Origin: Actinomycetota bacterium
GTDB lineage: Bacteria > Actinomycetota > Acidimicrobiia > Acidimicrobiales > Ilumatobacteraceae
Length of the DNA stretch: 63,963 nt
NCBI GenBank assembly: GCA_026393575.1
Contig: JAPKZX010000037.1
Coordinates: forward strand, 1-63,963
Direction: 5' to 3'
A program made the position numbers and the translations under genes. Positions within the stretch are counted from its first letter, which is position 1; each line of letters begins with the position of its first letter. This document shows, piece after piece, positions 49,792 through 56,310 of the stretch. The notes under the pieces were generated by a model. The model worked only from the letters and a program-made list of their open reading frames with translations. It was not told the DNA's origin and made no database searches.

Positions 49792-52700
49792 CTAGCGAAA
49801 ATCTCGGCTAGGGACAGTTGCCGGAGCAAACAACGGCGTGATGTGCTCTGCCACAACATTGATGACACCGCTTGCAGATTCAATACGGCCCCGCACCAAC
49901 AATGCAGAAGCATCTCGTGCAACTGCGCGATGACGTGCCCAACATCCTTTTGAACACACCACATTGATGAGACCTGTTTCATCTTCCAAACTGATGAACG
50001 TTGCACCCTTTGCGCTCATGGGTCGCTGACGATGAGTAACAATGCCAGCAACCATGGCCCGATCACGATGCGGCACTGCTGGCAATTGGTCTGCAGTGAT
50101 AACTCCTTTGGCTTGCAGTTGCTCACGCAAAAAAATTGTGGGATGACCATCGGGCGAGATACCTGTAGCCCATAAGTCTGCAATTGCTTCCTCTATCGGT
50201 TCCATGCCCGGCAAAGTGGGACGTGTTTGCAGACCCATAACTCCTTGCAACTTGTCAATGTTCCCGTGCCCATATGCACCCGCTTCCCACAATGCATGGC
50301 GTCGGTCGTCTCCGAAGCTGGCAGTAAACGCACCAGACGTAGCCAACGCTTCAACCTGTTTACGAGACAACGCCGGCACACGTGTCACCAACTCTTCAAT
50401 TGATGCATACGGCCGATGTATTGCGATCTCGCGAGCCAGTTCAGAACCAATACCGCGCACTGAGCCAATGCCCAGGCGTACTGCAAGACCAGTTTCTGAT
50501 TCGCCGTGTTGTTCAAGCGTTGCTTCGTGACTTGATGCATTGATGTCTGGCGTATGCACCAACACTCCGTGACGTCGTGCGTCACGCACCAATGTGTGGG
50601 GAGACCAAAAGCCCATCGGTTGAGCATTGAGTAACGCGGCACAAAAAATTGCAGGTTCATGCAATTTGATATATGACGATGAATACACCAAGTACGCAAA
50701 ACTCACAGAGTGACTTTCCGGAAATCCGTAGTTAGCAAACGCTGCCATCTTCAAGAAAATCTCATCAGCAATCGCGTCAGTGATTCCCCGTTCCGCCATG
50801 CCTTGATACAGCCGCATCTTCAGTCGCTCCATGCGCGCCTGCGACCTTTTTGAGCCCATAGCTTGGCGTAGTTGGTCTGCTTCGCTTGCCGTAAAGCCAG
50901 CAACATCGATTGCCATTTGCATCAGTTGTTCTTGAAACAACGGCACGCCCAATGTTTTGCCCAAAGAATTTTCTAACAACGGATGCAAATACGTAATGGG
51001 TTCGAGTCCATTACGCCGGCGAATGTACGGATGCACAGACCCGCCCTGAATAGGGCCAGGACGAATGAGTGCAATCTCCACCACCAAGTCATAAAAGCGA
51101 CGCGGCTTCAACCGAGGCAACGTAGACATTTGCGCGCGTGACTCCACTTGAAATACACCCACCGTGTCTGCACGACACAACATGGAATACACATCGTCTT
51201 CTTGCGGAATGGTTGCAAGGTCAAGTTCATACCCGCGATGTTCAGAAATAAATGACACCGCATTGGATAGTGCCGACAACATGCCCAGACCCAGCAAGTC
51301 GAACTTCACTAACCCTGCAGCAGCACAATCATCTTTGTCCCACTGCAACACACTGCGGGTAGCCATGCGCCCCCACTCCACAGGGCACACTTCAATAATG
51401 GGTCTGTCACACTTCACCATTCCGCCTGAGTGAATACCCAGGTGTCGTGGCATGTGTTCCACTTCAGCTGCCATCTCTAATACCAAGTCGGGAATGTCGT
51501 GGTCACGTTGTGTAGCGGTGATAGCAACAGTGCCCCATGCGTCAACTTGTTTGCTCCATGAATCCTGCTGATCGGGTCTGTGCCCTAATGCACGTGCCAT
51601 GTCACGCACTGCTGAACGTGACCGATACGTAATGACATTGGCAACTTGTGCTGCATGATGACGCCCATGGCGGGCATACACATACTGAATGACTTCTTCC
51701 CGTCTACCACTTTCAATATCAATGTCAATGTCGGGCGGACCATCACGCTCTGGCGACAAGAATCGTTCAAACAACAAACCAAGCGACACCGCATCGGCTT
51801 TTGTAATTCCTAACGAATAGCACACTGCACTGTTGGCAGCACTGCCCCGACCCTGACACAAAATGCCCTGCTCCGTACAGAACCGCACGATGTCCCACAC
51901 CACTAAGAAATAGCCAGCAAAACCGAGCGTTTCAATAATTTCTAATTCATGATCAATGGTGCGCCATGACCGTGCACGCAACGATAAATCTTCACTTGAT
52001 TCAACTGGTTTCTCACCGTATCGATGTTGAGCAACGCGCGCCACAAGGTGCCGCAAGTACGACATTTCTGTATGGCCATCAGGACACGGAAACGGTGGCA
52101 ACTGTGGCGCCACCAATGACAAGTCAAATGCAATTTCCTGCGCAAGTGTTGCTGTGCGTTCCACAACACCTGGGTAGCGCGCAAAACGTCGTTGTTGCTC
52201 AGCGCCTGAACGCAAGTACGCCGTTGCTGCCGCGGGCAAAAGATGATCGATGCTGTCGAGGCCACATCTGTTTCGCACCGCAGCCAATGCTGTTGCTAAA
52301 CGATGCTGTGCTGGCACTGCATACATAACGTTGTTGCTGGCAACACACTCAAGATCGAGCATTGCTGCCAACTGCACCAATTGGTCGTTTCGCACAGCGT
52401 CAATAGGGTCGCCGTGATCCCACAGTTCCACCAACACATTTCGTTGTCCGAAATGTTCAACCAATGAACGCAGTATTCGTTCTGCTTCTGCTGGACCATG
52501 TTGCACCAGTGCCTGCACTACAGCACTAGTGCGCCCACCTGTGAGAACTATGCAATGGTCACGCACTGTTTCGCCCACTGTAGGAAAAGAAAACACGGGA
52601 GCGCCTTTACTGCCGGCAAGTTGCCCTTCACTAATAGCTCGCGCCATGCGTGCATACCCAGAAGGCCCACGCGCCAACAACACAATGTCGCCACCAGCAC

Positions 52701-53067
52701 AATCAAGTTCCACACCAAAGATGGTGGGCAGGTTTACTGCACGTGCTGCTTCAGCAAAACGCACGACTCCGTACAAACCATTGCGATCAGTAATGGCAAG
52801 TGCAGATAATCCGAGAGCCGCTGCCACCTCTGCTAATTCTTCGGGGTGCGCTGCACCTTCTAAGAAAGAAAAATTTGATGTGCAATGCAATTCTGCATAC
52901 GGCACTGTGGGTTGTTGACGCGACAACACGGGTTCAAACGGTTGACGTGTTGCACTAAATGCGGGGCCATCGCCACCGGCATTCCAGCCCACTGAAGACG
53001 GCGCTCGACCATCAGACAGTCGCGCTTCTAATTCGTGCCACGGCATCGCCGGATTATTGAACCCCAC
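49792..53067 (-). CDS. dnaE2: Error-prone DNA polymerase DnaE2
   Basis: C-family polymerase of the mutasome that copies past DNA damage. The 1091-aa protein has a PHP domain at the N-terminus (YAELHCTSNFSFLEGA near residue 56) and the palm motif PPDIDIDIESGRRE near residue 440, with the catalytic acidic residues. The start MGFNNPAMPWHELE matches DnaE2 proteins of mycobacteria, and GTG 53067 has TAGAAT six bases upstream. A LexA-type box overlaps that -10, so it should be repressed until DNA damage. imuB and imuA' lie upstream on the same strand. Confidence 0.95.
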   Translation of the reverse strand: MGFNNPAMPWHELEARLSDGRAPSSVGWNAGGDGPAFSATRQPFEPVLSRQQPTVPYAELHCTSNFSFLEGAAHPEELAEVAAALGLSALAITDRNGLYGVVRFAEAARAVNLPTIFGVELDCAGGDIVLLARGPSGYARMARAISEGQLAGSKGAPVFSFPTVGETVRDHCIVLTGGRTSAVVQALVQHGPAEAERILRSLVEHFGQRNVLVELWDHGDPIDAVRNDQLVQLAAMLDLECVASNNVMYAVPAQHRLATALAAVRNRCGLDSIDHLLPAAATAYLRSGAEQQRRFARYPGVVERTATLAQEIAFDLSLVAPQLPPFPCPDGHTEMSYLRHLVARVAQHRYGEKPVESSEDLSLRARSWRTIDHELEIIETLGFAGYFLVVWDIVRFCTEQGILCQGRGSAANSAVCYSLGITKADAVSLGLLFERFLSPERDGPPDIDIDIESGRREEVIQYVYARHGRHHAAQVANVITYRSRSAVRDMARALGHRPDQQDSWSKQVDAWGTVAITATQRDHDIPDLVLEMAAEVEHMPRHLGIHSGGMVKCDRPIIEVCPVEWGRMATRSVLQWDKDDCAAAGLVKFDLLGLGMLSALSNAVSFISEHRGYELDLATIPQEDDVYSMLCRADTVGVFQVESRAQMSTLPRLKPRRFYDLVVEIALIRPGPIQGGSVHPYIRRRNGLEPITYLHPLLENSLGKTLGVPLFQEQLMQMAIDVAGFTASEADQLRQAMGSKRSQARMERLKMRLYQGMAERGITDAIADEIFLKMAAFANYGFPESHSVSFAYLVYSSSYIKLHEPAIFCAALLNAQPMGFWSPHTLVRDARRHGVLVHTPDINASSHEATLEQHGESETGLAVRLGIGSVRGIGSELAREIAIHRPYASIEELVTRVPALSRKQVEALATSGAFTASFGDDRRHALWEAGAYGHGNIDKLQGVMGLQTRPTLPGMEPIEEAIADLWATGISPDGHPTIFLREQLQAKGVITADQLPAVPHRDRAMVAGIVTHRQRPMSAKGATFISLEDETGLINVVCSKGCWARHRAVARDASALLVRGRIESASGVINVVAEHITPLFAPATVPSRDFR

Positions 53068-53073
53068 CTCGTA

Positions 53074-53079
53074 ATTCTA
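53074..53079 (-). promoter_or_regulatory. -10 element of dnaE2
   Basis: TAGAAT on the minus strand is separated from the GTG start by six bases. It overlaps the first three bases of the SOS box, so repressor binding would block it directly. Confidence 0.55.
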
Positions 53080-53100
53080 TACGAACATATGTTCGTATAG
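53077..53100. promoter_or_regulatory. LexA (SOS) box of dnaE2
   Basis: A perfect 24-bp palindrome with the core CGAACATATGTTCG, which matches the actinobacterial LexA consensus CGAAC-N4-GTTCG. It lies 9 bases upstream of the dnaE2 start codon. Confidence 0.88.
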
Positions 53101-53109
53101 ACAAGGGCG

Positions 53110-53655
53110 CTACATGCCCAGTAAGGCTTTCGTGGCGCGCAACCCGCCTAATAGACCCACATCAGCAATGGCCTCTGCTTCGTCCCACGCAAACCATCGC
53201 ACCAGTTGGCTCTCGCCTTCTGCAGGAGCCGGCGCAACATCAGGAGCTCGCACCACATAACGCAGATCAAGATGCGTATGCCCTTTCGGGCCCGCATGCA
53301 CATCAAGATGCACAAACACTCCACCATCACTTTCGTGTCGCACAGGCAAACCAATTTCTTCTTCTGCTTCACGCAATGCACCTTGTGCAGCAGTTTCGCC
53401 TGCTTCGATATGGCCACCTGGTTGCAACCACATGTTGAGTCGCTTGTGCATGTGCAATGCAACTTTGTCTCCAGCATCACTCACCACGATTGCCGATGCT
53501 GTGATGTGCACAAGATCTGCATGTTCATTAAATGGGTCCGTAAGAACCGGTGCGAGAGATAAGAACTTCTCTATTGACTCACGTTCACGTTCATCTACTG
53601 GTGTGCGTGCGCCGACTAATTCACACCAGTGTTGAGCATCGCGATGTATCGGCAC
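53110..53655 (-). CDS. NUDIX hydrolase within the mutasome cluster
   Basis: A 181-aa protein. The NUDIX box lies near residues 80-102: GHIEAGE, then REAEEEIG, with all the acidic metal ligands. An N-terminal stretch of 50 residues comes before the domain. It would hydrolyse a nucleoside diphosphate linked to another group, such as a damaged nucleotide. The start is GTG 53655. It lies 24 bases after imuB and has no promoter-like sequence of its own, so it is probably read through from the LexA-controlled imuA' promoter. Its stop lies 9 bases before the palindrome of dnaE2. Confidence 0.88.
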   Translation of the reverse strand: MPIHRDAQHWCELVGARTPVDERERESIEKFLSLAPVLTDPFNEHADLVHITASAIVVSDAGDKVALHMHKRLNMWLQPGGHIEAGETAAQGALREAEEEIGLPVRHESDGGVFVHLDVHAGPKGHTHLDLRYVVRAPDVAPAPAEGESQLVRWFAWDEAEAIADVGLLGGLRATKALLGM

Positions 53656-53679
53656 GCACCAAGTGTGCCACGAGAATGA

Positions 53680-55143
53680 CTAGTCGTAGCGTGCGAGCAG
53701 GGTCCATTGCTGATTTTCTAAACCAACAAGAAACACCCCAACACCACGCCGTGGATGACGCACCAACACCTGCATACGTACTTGGCGGCGTTTGCGACGC
53801 GGATCCCACCATCGCTCTTCAAGTGGCCATGGCCCAGCAACTCGCACCACGTCATACTTTTGGCTACCAACTTCGACATGCGACGGCACGGTGTTTAGTT
53901 CGTGCCTGCCAGTAACTCCAACATCAGTGCCACGTGCATCAGTGACGCGAATGAGTGGTGGCTCGACGGCAACAGATGCAGGTGATGGCGACGGCACAGA
54001 GCCCGACCAATGACGCGCCACCCCATCACCCGTTTGTACTCGTTGTTCACTTGCGTCTGGATTTGTGATGTCAACAAGAGACAGCGGCACACGCGAATAC
54101 ACCGTTGCCATATCGCGACCACCTTCCCACCGCGGCACCGTGACCTGCACACTGCTGTTCACTGCCATCGCCATGCTGGCTGCACGCGCTGCTCGCTCGG
54201 TGTTTTCTTGACTGCCACCCCACAACAACGGTTGCGACACCAATACTTCGCGACTTTCTAACGGCATGAATTCAACTCGCACCACTCCGCTAGTGGGCGC
54301 ATCGGGGTCTGCGGCTGAATTAGTGAGCCACCCTTCAAGTTGATACAACAGTCGTTGCGCAGTGACTGCAGAACTAAACCCTCGCGGCTCACCCCAAATG
54401 CGACTTGCACTCTCTGCATGATCGGTATGACACGTGATTAACAGTCGCACGCATTGCTGACCATGACCCGCAATGGCGTTGACCATGGCATTGATGGCGT
54501 CGCGCGCAGCAGACACCACATGTGCCGCATTAGCCAACGGTGATTCGAATTCAACACTGCACGCAAAGTCTGATGGTGGCGCACCAGGTGCAAGATGCTG
54601 CACGTCGTCACCTGATATCAACAGATACACCCGTTTGCCTTCGATACCGAAACGATCAATAAGAGCAGCTTCTCCCACCGCCAACAATGCGCCACACGTA
54701 CCAAGACCTAACCGTTGAAAGAGATCAACACTGTCTGCTGTAATACCGCCCACGCGAGACAATGAGGCCACCGGTAACGCGGCTATGAACTCAGCCGTAA
54801 TACCAGTGTCGATAACGCACGGGCGTTGGCGTGACACCGCCAAGTGTGCTGCAGCGAGTGCTGCAAAACGTGAATCTGCAATACCTACGCCAAAGGCAGA
54901 ATCCGTGTTGGTATCAATACAGATTTCATGCAGTTTTTGCGCCACCGCGTTATCGCCACCGAAGTAACGCGACGGACCGCGCGCCGACAACACAATGGTG
55001 CCAATGTCTTGCACTTCAACAAGTGGTGACAACGCAGTGACCGCACGCACCACATGCTCGAAAGTGCGAAAAGCGTGTTCTTCACCAAGTTGACCATGTT
55101 GTTGCATCCAGTACGGAAACACCACCGCAATAGAGCGACTCAT
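53680..55143 (-). CDS. imuB: ImuB, Y-family polymerase-like mutasome protein
   Basis: A 487-aa protein starting MSRSIAVVFPYW. It has the fold of Y-family polymerases but the N-terminal metal-binding Asp and the SIDEA catalytic motif are missing (VEVQDIGTIVLSARG instead), as in all ImuB. Near residue 304 it has the stretch SQPLLWGG, comparable to the beta-clamp-binding QLPLWG of mycobacterial ImuB. It would bring DnaE2 to the clamp. ATG 55143 overlaps the imuA' stop as ATGA. Confidence 0.93.
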   Translation of the reverse strand: MSRSIAVVFPYWMQQHGQLGEEHAFRTFEHVVRAVTALSPLVEVQDIGTIVLSARGPSRYFGGDNAVAQKLHEICIDTNTDSAFGVGIADSRFAALAAAHLAVSRQRPCVIDTGITAEFIAALPVASLSRVGGITADSVDLFQRLGLGTCGALLAVGEAALIDRFGIEGKRVYLLISGDDVQHLAPGAPPSDFACSVEFESPLANAAHVVSAARDAINAMVNAIAGHGQQCVRLLITCHTDHAESASRIWGEPRGFSSAVTAQRLLYQLEGWLTNSAADPDAPTSGVVRVEFMPLESREVLVSQPLLWGGSQENTERAARAASMAMAVNSSVQVTVPRWEGGRDMATVYSRVPLSLVDITNPDASEQRVQTGDGVARHWSGSVPSPSPASVAVEPPLIRVTDARGTDVGVTGRHELNTVPSHVEVGSQKYDVVRVAGPWPLEERWWDPRRKRRQVRMQVLVRHPRRGVGVFLVGLENQQWTLLARYD

Positions 55144-55787
55144 AATGCACTCGGTAACTGCACTGTGCATGAACGGTGCGCATACACACGACGCCCCGAA
55201 GCAGACACTTCCACCGTGCGTGAATGAGCATGAGTATCAAACTGCCAATCAACGGTCCGCGCGCTAAACGATGCGTCGAGAGAGAATGCACCAGGGTTTC
55301 CCAATACAAACAACACAGTGCCTTGCGCTTTCACACGCGTGGCAATGCGTCGTGCTTCAGATTGCGAACACACAGGCGACGACACTGCAACAAGATCGAC
55401 ACCGTCGACCAATGCACCTACTACTGGCGACATGACAGACGATGTGTTGTCGCCAGACACACACAATGTGCGATGCAACGCCACGCCATGTTCGTATGCA
55501 GACATAAGGCCGGCGCTAGGCATGTTGACCATGGCAAACCATGAACCGCCCCTAGTGGCTGCAGCAACAAGACCAAACAACAGCGACGTAGCGGCGTCAC
55601 CCGTGCAGCCATATATGTAGCCGCGCTCGAGACCTGCTGCCGGCAACAACGGCGCTAATTGCGAAGCAACTGCAATGGGACCAAACCCACTGGCAACATG
55701 GGCATGCATACGTTCAGCAAACTGCACACCAGTTTCCACGCCCGCAATGCGCATGCCTGCAAGTTCTTCAAAAGCGACGCGTCCCAT
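55140..55787 (-). CDS. imuA': ImuA', RecA-like mutasome protein
   Basis: A 215-aa protein, the first gene of the mutasome operon. The overall layout is that of mycobacterial ImuA', with GLERGYIYGCTGDAATSLLFGL near residue 53 in the place of a Walker A loop (degenerate: no GKT/S), and LVAVSSPVCSQSEARRIATRVKAQGTVLFVLG near residue 130. It would support ImuB and DnaE2. It has TACGCT six bases before the ATG and an SOS box directly before that. It is coupled to imuB by a four-base overlap. Confidence 0.85.
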   Translation of the reverse strand: MGRVAFEELAGMRIAGVETGVQFAERMHAHVASGFGPIAVASQLAPLLPAAGLERGYIYGCTGDAATSLLFGLVAAATRGGSWFAMVNMPSAGLMSAYEHGVALHRTLCVSGDNTSSVMSPVVGALVDGVDLVAVSSPVCSQSEARRIATRVKAQGTVLFVLGNPGAFSLDASFSARTVDWQFDTHAHSRTVEVSASGRRVYAHRSCTVQLPSAL

Positions 55788-55793
55788 GGGGCC

Positions 55794-55799
55794 AGCGTA
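55794..55799 (-). promoter_or_regulatory. -10 element of imuA'
   Basis: TACGCT on the minus strand is separated from the ATG at 55787 by six bases; it abuts the SOS box. Confidence 0.5.
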
Positions 55800-55800
55800 G

Positions 55801-55814
55801 CGAACACATGTTCG
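55801..55814. promoter_or_regulatory. LexA (SOS) box of imuA'-imuB
   Basis: CGAACACATGTTCG keeps the CGAAC and GTTCG half-sites with four bases between. It lies one base upstream of the -10, between -10 and -35. Confidence 0.85.
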
Positions 55815-55848: not shown

Positions 55849-56310
55849 CTAGCCCTGTTTTGCCAACCAACGCTCGCGGCCGAGACGGCTGCGTTCCCAC
55901 AAGTGCGCAGGAATACGAGGGTCACGACCAGAGGCTGCAGCATCTTCGGCTGACTCCACTGGAGCAGCGGCGGCTTCGGCAGGCATGTTGGCTAATAGTT
56001 CTTCCAGAGTTGGTTGCACCATTCCTGGCTTCCAGTACTGGTACAAATCGCGAACAATTTCGTCGAGACCAGACTGCGTGGCACCAGGAGCCAACGTTGC
56101 AGAGATGATGTTGCCGTACACATGCACGCCAGCTACTTGGCCAGACTCAAAGAATCGACGCGCAAGAACTGCAGCGGGGCGTGGGCCCTTGGCCTGATCG
56201 GCACTGGTGAAACGTTCGTGCCCCATGCCTGTGAGAGACCGATTGGTTTCAAAGCGCACAATGGCGGGAGACCCACCGGCTGACTGTTCGACTGCTACTG
56301 GTTGACCCAT
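55849..56310 (-). CDS. NifU/Nfu N-terminal-domain-like protein
   Basis: A 153-aa protein. Residues 1-95 resemble the N-terminal domain of Nfu scaffold proteins (SPAIVRFETNRSL, then PAAVLARRFFESGQVAGVHVYGNIISATL), in which a small segment GVxxVHVxxNxVTV recurs. The Cys-containing iron-sulfur domain of complete Nfu proteins is absent, so an iron-sulfur role is uncertain. The rest is Ala/Glu-rich and basic at the end. TATCGT lies six bases before the ATG, so the start is well supported. Confidence 0.6.
   Translation of the reverse strand: MGQPVAVEQSAGGSPAIVRFETNRSLTGMGHERFTSADQAKGPRPAAVLARRFFESGQVAGVHVYGNIISATLAPGATQSGLDEIVRDLYQYWKPGMVQPTLEELLANMPAEAAAAPVESAEDAAASGRDPRIPAHLWERSRLGRERWLAKQG

Follow-up and report, generated by a model that had tools for sequence, protein, structure and literature searches.

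The ImuA'-ImuB-DnaE2 mutasome is known from mycobacteria (PMC10421592, PMC11791113), and a 2026 survey of DnaE2 modules sets ImuA-ImuB-DnaE2 beside modules built on other PolY, RecA and ImuB-C proteins (PMC12926913). In the accessible text of that survey the section on DnaE2 modules names no NUDIX partner and the word 'hydrolase' is absent from the main text; 'hydrolase' is likewise absent from the main text of PMC6511836 as available, and neither 'hydrolase' nor 'nudix' occurs in the accessible part of PMC3765255. Indeed, a partial literature search, with subscription journals mostly outside it, met no description of a NUDIX gene as part of an imuA'-imuB-dnaE2 cassette. Here we analyze such an arrangement in a 63,963-nucleotide stretch of contig JAPKZX010000037.1 (assembly GCA_026393575.1; Actinomycetota, Acidimicrobiales, Ilumatobacteraceae), referred to as the window. 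It resembles the mycobacterial system in encoding the same three proteins, with LexA-type boxes at imuA' and dnaE2, and differs from it in carrying a NUDIX hydrolase gene between imuB and dnaE2. Overall, we believe that the NUDIX gene is probably an independently expressed gene with its own SOS-independent promoter, a neighbour within a LexA-controlled mutasome locus, and we give this reading a probability of about 0.62. The alternatives weighed below are not fully exclusive, so that their probabilities are not constrained to a total of one. The features on which the argument turns are as follows.

49792-53067, minus strand: dnaE2, error-prone C-family polymerase of 1091 amino acids (NCBIfam NF004225, 1403.6 bits against a cut-off of 939)
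53074-53079, minus strand: dnaE2 -10-like hexamer TAGAAT, ending 6 nucleotides before the GTG and lying partly within the palindrome
53076-53101: perfect 26-bp palindrome containing the LexA box CGAACATATGTTCG (53082-53095), read as the putative dnaE2 operator
53110-53655, minus strand: NUDIX hydrolase gene, 181 amino acids, GTG start, intact NUDIX box (Pfam PF00293, 1e-14)
53662-53670, minus strand: extended -10-like element of the NUDIX gene, TGGCACACT, ending 6 nucleotides before the GTG start codon
53680-55143, minus strand: imuB, 487 amino acids, its start overlapping the imuA' stop (ATGA)
55140-55787, minus strand: imuA', 215 amino acids (NCBIfam NF058630, 84.5 bits against a cut-off of 65)
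55794-55799, minus strand: imuA' -10-like hexamer TACGCT, ending 6 nucleotides before the ATG and adjoining the LexA box
55801-55814: LexA box CGAACATGTGTTCG, 5' of imuA'

Open reading frames and model matches bear out the order imuA', imuB, NUDIX, dnaE2 on the minus strand and the 24-base gap between imuB and the NUDIX gene, both given in a preliminary description of this DNA made from the sequence alone. The window ImuB protein matches DNA polymerase IV models weakly, always below cut-off, and its identity is assigned from its position between imuA' and dnaE2 and from its homologues. With that assignment, all components of an ImuA'-ImuB-DnaE2 mutasome are present.

The preliminary description had allowed that the NUDIX gene might be found here in this genome only, as a chance neighbour, and a survey of related mutasome loci shows otherwise. 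Among the 221 genomes searched in the window's family (f1), NUDIX matches at E <= 0.001 occur in 208 and ImuB matches in 199; strong NUDIX matches (E <= 2e-24) occur in 166 of the 221 and in 0 of the 24 genomes of genus g119, by a hand count in which many of the other genomes are incomplete. The family loci fetched number 59 and cover 22 genera; ImuB served to choose 55 of them, and the position of the NUDIX gene the other four. The NUDIX gene lies downstream of imuB and on the same strand in 52 of them (48 of the 55 chosen by ImuB), representing 20 of the 22 genera; the seven loci lacking a linked NUDIX gene are six from g119 and one from g120. Where the stretch includes dnaE2, as it does in 40 of the linked 52, that gene always lies downstream of the NUDIX gene and on the same strand. 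A set of 80 named loci chosen by NUDIX similarity, partly overlapping the fetched loci, comprises 61 with imuB before NUDIX and no regulator, 16 with a regulator between the two, two with dnaE2 only and one with neither. The gene is also under purifying selection, with ratios of nonsynonymous to synonymous substitution rates of 0.05-0.06 against three near relatives. By the measure of these sequences, then, the NUDIX gene is conserved at the mutasome locus, specifically in this family, and is not the accident of one genome.

The interval between imuB and the NUDIX gene is less constant than their linkage. In 26 of the 52 linked loci it holds an opposite-strand gene of about 250-300 amino acids, divergent from the NUDIX gene, which encodes an OmpR-family response regulator (L119 confirmed by Pfam as Trans_reg_C plus Response_reg, the others recognized by BLAST to L119). 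The remaining 26 linked loci and the window lack the regulator, and in these 27 adjacent-type loci the gap is 10-60 nucleotides in 20, 140-154 in three and 392-552 in four. In one of the last four (L136) imuB is broken, while the other three, from the window's own genus, carry homologous open reading frames of about 107-120 amino acids antisense to imuB (L094:8867-9190, L096:8884-9216, L099:8959-9318), that of L096 having no Pfam match. The imuB of the L096 genome is 94% identical to that of the window, yet the antisense frame intervenes; thus even close relatives of the window differ in whether imuB and the NUDIX gene directly adjoin. On the ImuB tree the regulator label needs at least four changes within the family (five with the f4 rows counted as regulator-less), so the regulator was lost or gained repeatedly. 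Since g119 and most larger-genome genera have it, we infer that it is ancestral at the locus.

Given the head-to-head arrangement in those 26 loci, one might suppose that the adjacent regulator controls the NUDIX gene, the two forming a divergent pair to which the mutasome is incidental. Such a pairing would be compatible with an independently expressed gene, but in g119 the regulator is retained and its divergent partner is another gene, for a Cys/Met-metabolism enzyme of the pyridoxal-phosphate-dependent type that occupies the place of the NUDIX gene (L106-L111; PF01053 checked in L106), and the window locus has no regulator at all. We consider this account very unlikely. The regulator itself (L119:6524-7402 and equivalents) seems to be without the usual receiver-domain lysine, having SMPV at the place of the expected TKPF-like motif, and so would be an atypical response regulator beside the mutasome. 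Some larger genomes (g4, g127) carry NUDIX-GNAT fusions inside the cassette (L137:9788-10768, by Pfam; L129:8945-9994), and an unlinked NUDIX orthologue of family f5 (L037:146-1144) shows the same fusion by BLAST.

A start of its own is suggested by the sequence immediately before the NUDIX gene. All three of these gene starts in the window look alike, with TACGCT-N6-ATG at imuA', CACACT-N6-GTG at the NUDIX gene and TAGAAT-N6-GTG at dnaE2, and TGGCACACT-N6-GTG spans 53653-53670, directly before the NUDIX start. A -10-like element 6 nucleotides from a start codon suggests a leaderless message, as known from actinobacterial promoters. Across the family loci, neighbouring offsets would predict TAnnnT ending 6-8 nucleotides before the NUDIX start in 0.2 adjacent and 0.4 regulator-type loci, and it is present in 9 of 27 and 13 of 26, respectively; in two of the nine adjacent cases (L091, L092) the imuB stop codon forms the hexamer, leaving 7 of 27 free of that effect. 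The looser nAnnnT is found in 21 of 27 adjacent loci (3.8 expected) and 17 of 26 regulator-type loci (2.8 expected), and the offsets of -10-like hexamers peak at 6 and 7. At the level of genera, TAnnnT stands at 6-9 nucleotides in at least one locus of five of nine adjacent and four of 11 regulator-type genera. The window's own form, TGnCACAnT exactly 6 nucleotides before the NUDIX start, recurs in six of the 10 other fetched loci of its genus and in eight of the 77 named loci holding imuB (one of the named loci, L178, is the same contig as L096); the starts that bear it lie anywhere from 15 to 432 nucleotides from the end of imuB and keep the same 6-nucleotide offset, in a search that allowed 5-9. 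The preliminary description saw no promoter before the NUDIX gene; on the contrary, promoter-like TGGCACACT precedes it, and elements of this kind are conserved at that offset.

The boxes of the LexA regulon point the same way. The preliminary description reported SOS boxes at imuA', adjoining its -10, and at dnaE2, and both are present; the palindrome at dnaE2 is perfect and overlaps the -10 as it said, although its length is 26 bp and not 24. The 1.9-Mb genome (82% complete) holds seven perfect CGAACnnnnGTTCG sites against three for the reversed pattern, and CGAACATATGTTCG itself occurs once in it. Five of the seven neighbour imuA', dnaE2, lexA (L272), recA (L276) and ruvC-ruvA-ruvB (L274), the sixth an FtsB-like gene (L273), and the seventh lies inside a lipoamide-acyltransferase-like reading frame (L275); gene names for L272-L276 come from reading the translations rather than from a model search. 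The sixth box (genome G000, contig C42, 1501-1514) stands just 5' of the FtsB-like gene and downstream of an enolase-like gene, a possible link, on this sequence, between the SOS response and cell division. The window motif also fits tCGAAC-N4-GNNCGa, the consensus for LexA in Streptomyces (PMC9380542).

Across the family the same boxes persist. In adjacent-type loci, the window included, the box upstream of imuA' is perfect in 26 of 27 and has one mismatch in the other, and that upstream of dnaE2 is perfect in 23 of 26, the remaining three (L102, L127, L131) having been missed owing to start calls and having perfect boxes nearby. In regulator-type loci, g119 included, the imuA' box is perfect in 22 of 32, has one mismatch in five and is worse or falls where there is no sequence in five, while the dnaE2 box is perfect in 18 of 20 and has one mismatch in two. 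Because the boxes exceed chance and are shared with lexA, recA and ruvC, LexA control of imuA'B and dnaE2 is well founded as a prediction, and promoter palindromes of the kind found at lexA and recA are present at both. The NUDIX gene has no such box. In the window a LexA box stands beside the -10-like element at imuA' and dnaE2 only, and a perfect box is found in 0 of 53 NUDIX upstream regions (-200 to +20). One-mismatch matches occur in three of the 53, from regulator-type genomes (L123 and the near-identical L144 and L145), and were judged to be chance. NUDIX and dnaE2 starts in these counts were set by nearness to the start of the alignment, and some are wrong; imuB start calls outside the window's genus (g1) are unreliable and were excluded from the promoter statistics.

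These observations bear directly on the model that the preliminary description favoured, in which the NUDIX gene, for want of a promoter, would be induced with imuA'B. Put in its strongest form, the gene would be the third of a LexA-controlled operon in compact genomes, purging damaged deoxynucleoside triphosphates to steer incorporation by DnaE2. That model now looks unlikely: a promoter-like element stands before the NUDIX gene, the gene has no LexA box of its own, an opposite-strand regulator intervenes in half of the linked loci and an antisense frame of about 110 amino acids in L096, with homologues in L094 and L099, g119 keeps imuB without it, and no MutT model reaches its cut-off. With a promoter-like element before it, no LexA box of its own and a regulator in between in half of the linked loci, the NUDIX gene is most simply taken as independently expressed.

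At the same time, a number of points weigh against independent expression. The window element is CACACT and not TAnnnT; TAnnnT is missing at the called NUDIX start in half of the regulator-type loci, and two loci of the window's own genus (L099 and L100) lack even nAnnnT. Genome-wide, TGnCACAnT-N6-RTG is not enriched (11 sites against nine for the reversed pattern), and the more canonical TGnTAnnnT-N6-RTG has just 13 sites where its reversed control, which differs in composition, has 69. The p-values for hexamer enrichment ignore kinship, some of the named loci are fetched contigs, and the ancestral state of the regulator is itself something we infer. A consensus scan finds no terminator-like site between imuB and the NUDIX gene, which together with the close packing fits co-transcription; the same type of scan finds no promoter in that gap, but it also misses those of imuA' and dnaE2.

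Conservation of the neighbourhood is not peculiar to the NUDIX gene. Upstream of imuA' the window encodes an Nfu_N-like protein of 153 amino acids (55849-56310, minus strand; Pfam E 0.02, below cut-off), and the DNA fetched holds a relative of it at 53 of 60 family loci, at 16 of 19 loci from elsewhere in the order and at one of 19 from the class or phylum; it is a more constant neighbour of the mutasome than the NUDIX gene is. A DUF3039 gene accompanies 24 of the 60 family loci. Because these genes are conserved there too, a conserved neighbourhood alone is weak evidence for a tie between the NUDIX gene and the mutasome, and the gene could be a pure passenger, carried along by synteny and linked to the mutasome neither in function nor in regulation, read-through included. 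Set against such neighbours is the persistence of the NUDIX linkage through changes of the regulator in several lineages, and its recurrence in family f4 (inverted) and beside dnaE2 in family f55. We regard a pure passenger as decidedly unlikely.

A second, different NUDIX gene is convergent with dnaE2, about 320-1010 bases past its stop, in 12 of the 59 fetched family loci (L093, L094, L095, L098, L100, L110, L111, L113, L114, L115, L120, L148), a count limited by the many stretches that stop short of this distance; in the window no such gene lies within 1.5 kb. For the five examined, NCBIfam gives RNA pyrophosphohydrolase and general Nudix models as top matches, with scores that fall far short of the cut-offs.

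Outside the family the linkage thins. In a sample of 148 genomes from the order, 23 have a strong NUDIX match (E <= 1.5e-28), and in seven of these, by hand count, it is linked to the cassette: G000, G006, G102 and G134 (f1), G003 and G062 (f4, on the opposite strand) and G055 (f55). G064 (f1), whose weaker NUDIX match is cut by a contig end, is also linked. The other 16 matches lie on a different contig from ImuB, and no imu or dnaE2 reading frame was found near them in the stretch examined, within the limits set by contig ends. Several of these unlinked copies adjoin a C4-type zinc-ribbon protein (L036 by Pfam; L039, L047, L048 and L049 by eye). Among ImuB loci outside f1, a NUDIX motif occurs in 0 of 19 from the order and 0 of 19 from the class or phylum; both f4 loci, which were fetched for their NUDIX matches, have it in inverted orientation, so that 38 of 40 loci are without it. 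The motif was found in all 55 loci with a called gene (52 family, two f4 and the window), which served as positive control, and a NUDIX gene lying past a contig end, or more than about 6-7.5 kb from imuB, would escape. Because g119 keeps imuB without a NUDIX gene and these 38 loci lack the motif, the gene, as far as the sequences go, does not accompany the mutasome across lineages as a component would; it seems to be an interesting neighbour of the mutasome rather than a proven part.

Two of the linked cases call for comment. In G055 the NUDIX gene and dnaE2 form a head-to-head pair on a contig of 3.1 kb, and we set this linkage aside as support since it depends on that single contig, from a genome that is 6% contaminated. 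The f4 NUDIX sequences branch among those of the window's family, while f4 ImuB and DnaE2 fall outside. Horizontal transfer of the NUDIX gene into f4 was considered and dropped, as the approximately unbiased test, run without six free rows that were long or gappy, does not reject a single family NUDIX clade (p 0.315). A NUDIX gene that had moved in between imuB and dnaE2 in two or more actinobacterial families might be a lineage-specific mutasome accessory, with a basal promoter and SOS read-through in compact genomes, adjusting the pool of ribo- or deoxynucleoside triphosphates or of dinucleoside polyphosphates while DnaE2 copies damaged DNA. We hold this to be a speculative proposal at long odds.

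The protein itself says little about such a role. Its predicted structure has a mean predicted local distance difference test score of 94.2, and the modelled fold together with the NUDIX box, which we take to be GX5EX7REUXEEXGU with Ala at the first U position in the window protein, places it in the NUDIX hydrolase superfamily. The cut-off for MutT 8-oxo-dGTP diphosphatase is missed (TIGR00586, 30.2 bits against 97.9), and model scores and a structure search, which excludes no fold family, do not reveal a substrate in either sequence or fold. The window protein is 26% identical to Thermus thermophilus Ndx1, an Ap6A hydrolase (1vc8), and 21% identical to Mycobacterium smegmatis MutT1 (6m72), identities at which substrate cannot be transferred, and 22% identical to a Clostridium perfringens NUDIX hydrolase (3fcm) whose entry title names no substrate.

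Thus the general history of the locus, on the reading of an independently expressed gene, might run as follows. An ordinary LexA-controlled ImuA'-ImuB-DnaE2 mutasome would have received the NUDIX gene early in the Ilumatobacteraceae-type family, in an ancestor arranged as imuA' and imuB, an opposite-strand OmpR-type regulator, the NUDIX gene and, further on, dnaE2. Loss of the regulator in several lineages would then have left the NUDIX gene mostly within 10-60 bases of imuB. The gene would be transcribed from its own, probably leaderless, SOS-independent promoter. In compact genomes such as that of the window, it is plausible from the packing that induction of imuA'B adds some NUDIX transcript by read-through. 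Its role would probably be general house-cleaning of nucleotides or dinucleoside polyphosphates, to which proximity to DnaE2 may add at most a mild advantage. The preliminary description expected the NUDIX gene to follow imuA'B, an expectation to which the 26 loci with an opposite-strand gene in between, and the 53 upstream regions free of a perfect box, run counter. The case carries a caution: tight packing hinted at an operon, and comparison across the family showed a promoter-like element and an opposite-strand gene arrangement. If the NUDIX hydrolase does act with DnaE2, the mutation spectra of damaged cells would depend on pool cleaning during error-prone synthesis, and the regulator-type, adjacent and NUDIX-less genera form a comparative set in which this can be tested.

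Links between pool cleaning and DnaE2 have been touched upon elsewhere. In mycobacteria, work on MazG and 5-OH-dCTP, in the part available to us, describes a rise in dnaE2 expression when pool cleaning fails under oxidative stress (PMC3855555). The nearest precedent that we found is the mutT-phrB operon of Prochlorococcus MED4 (PMC2955971). There the partner is a photolyase, whose repair is error-free, and no LexA control is shown in the text examined; what the two systems share is a small genome of aquatic origin in which a NUDIX gene neighbours one for the response to DNA damage.

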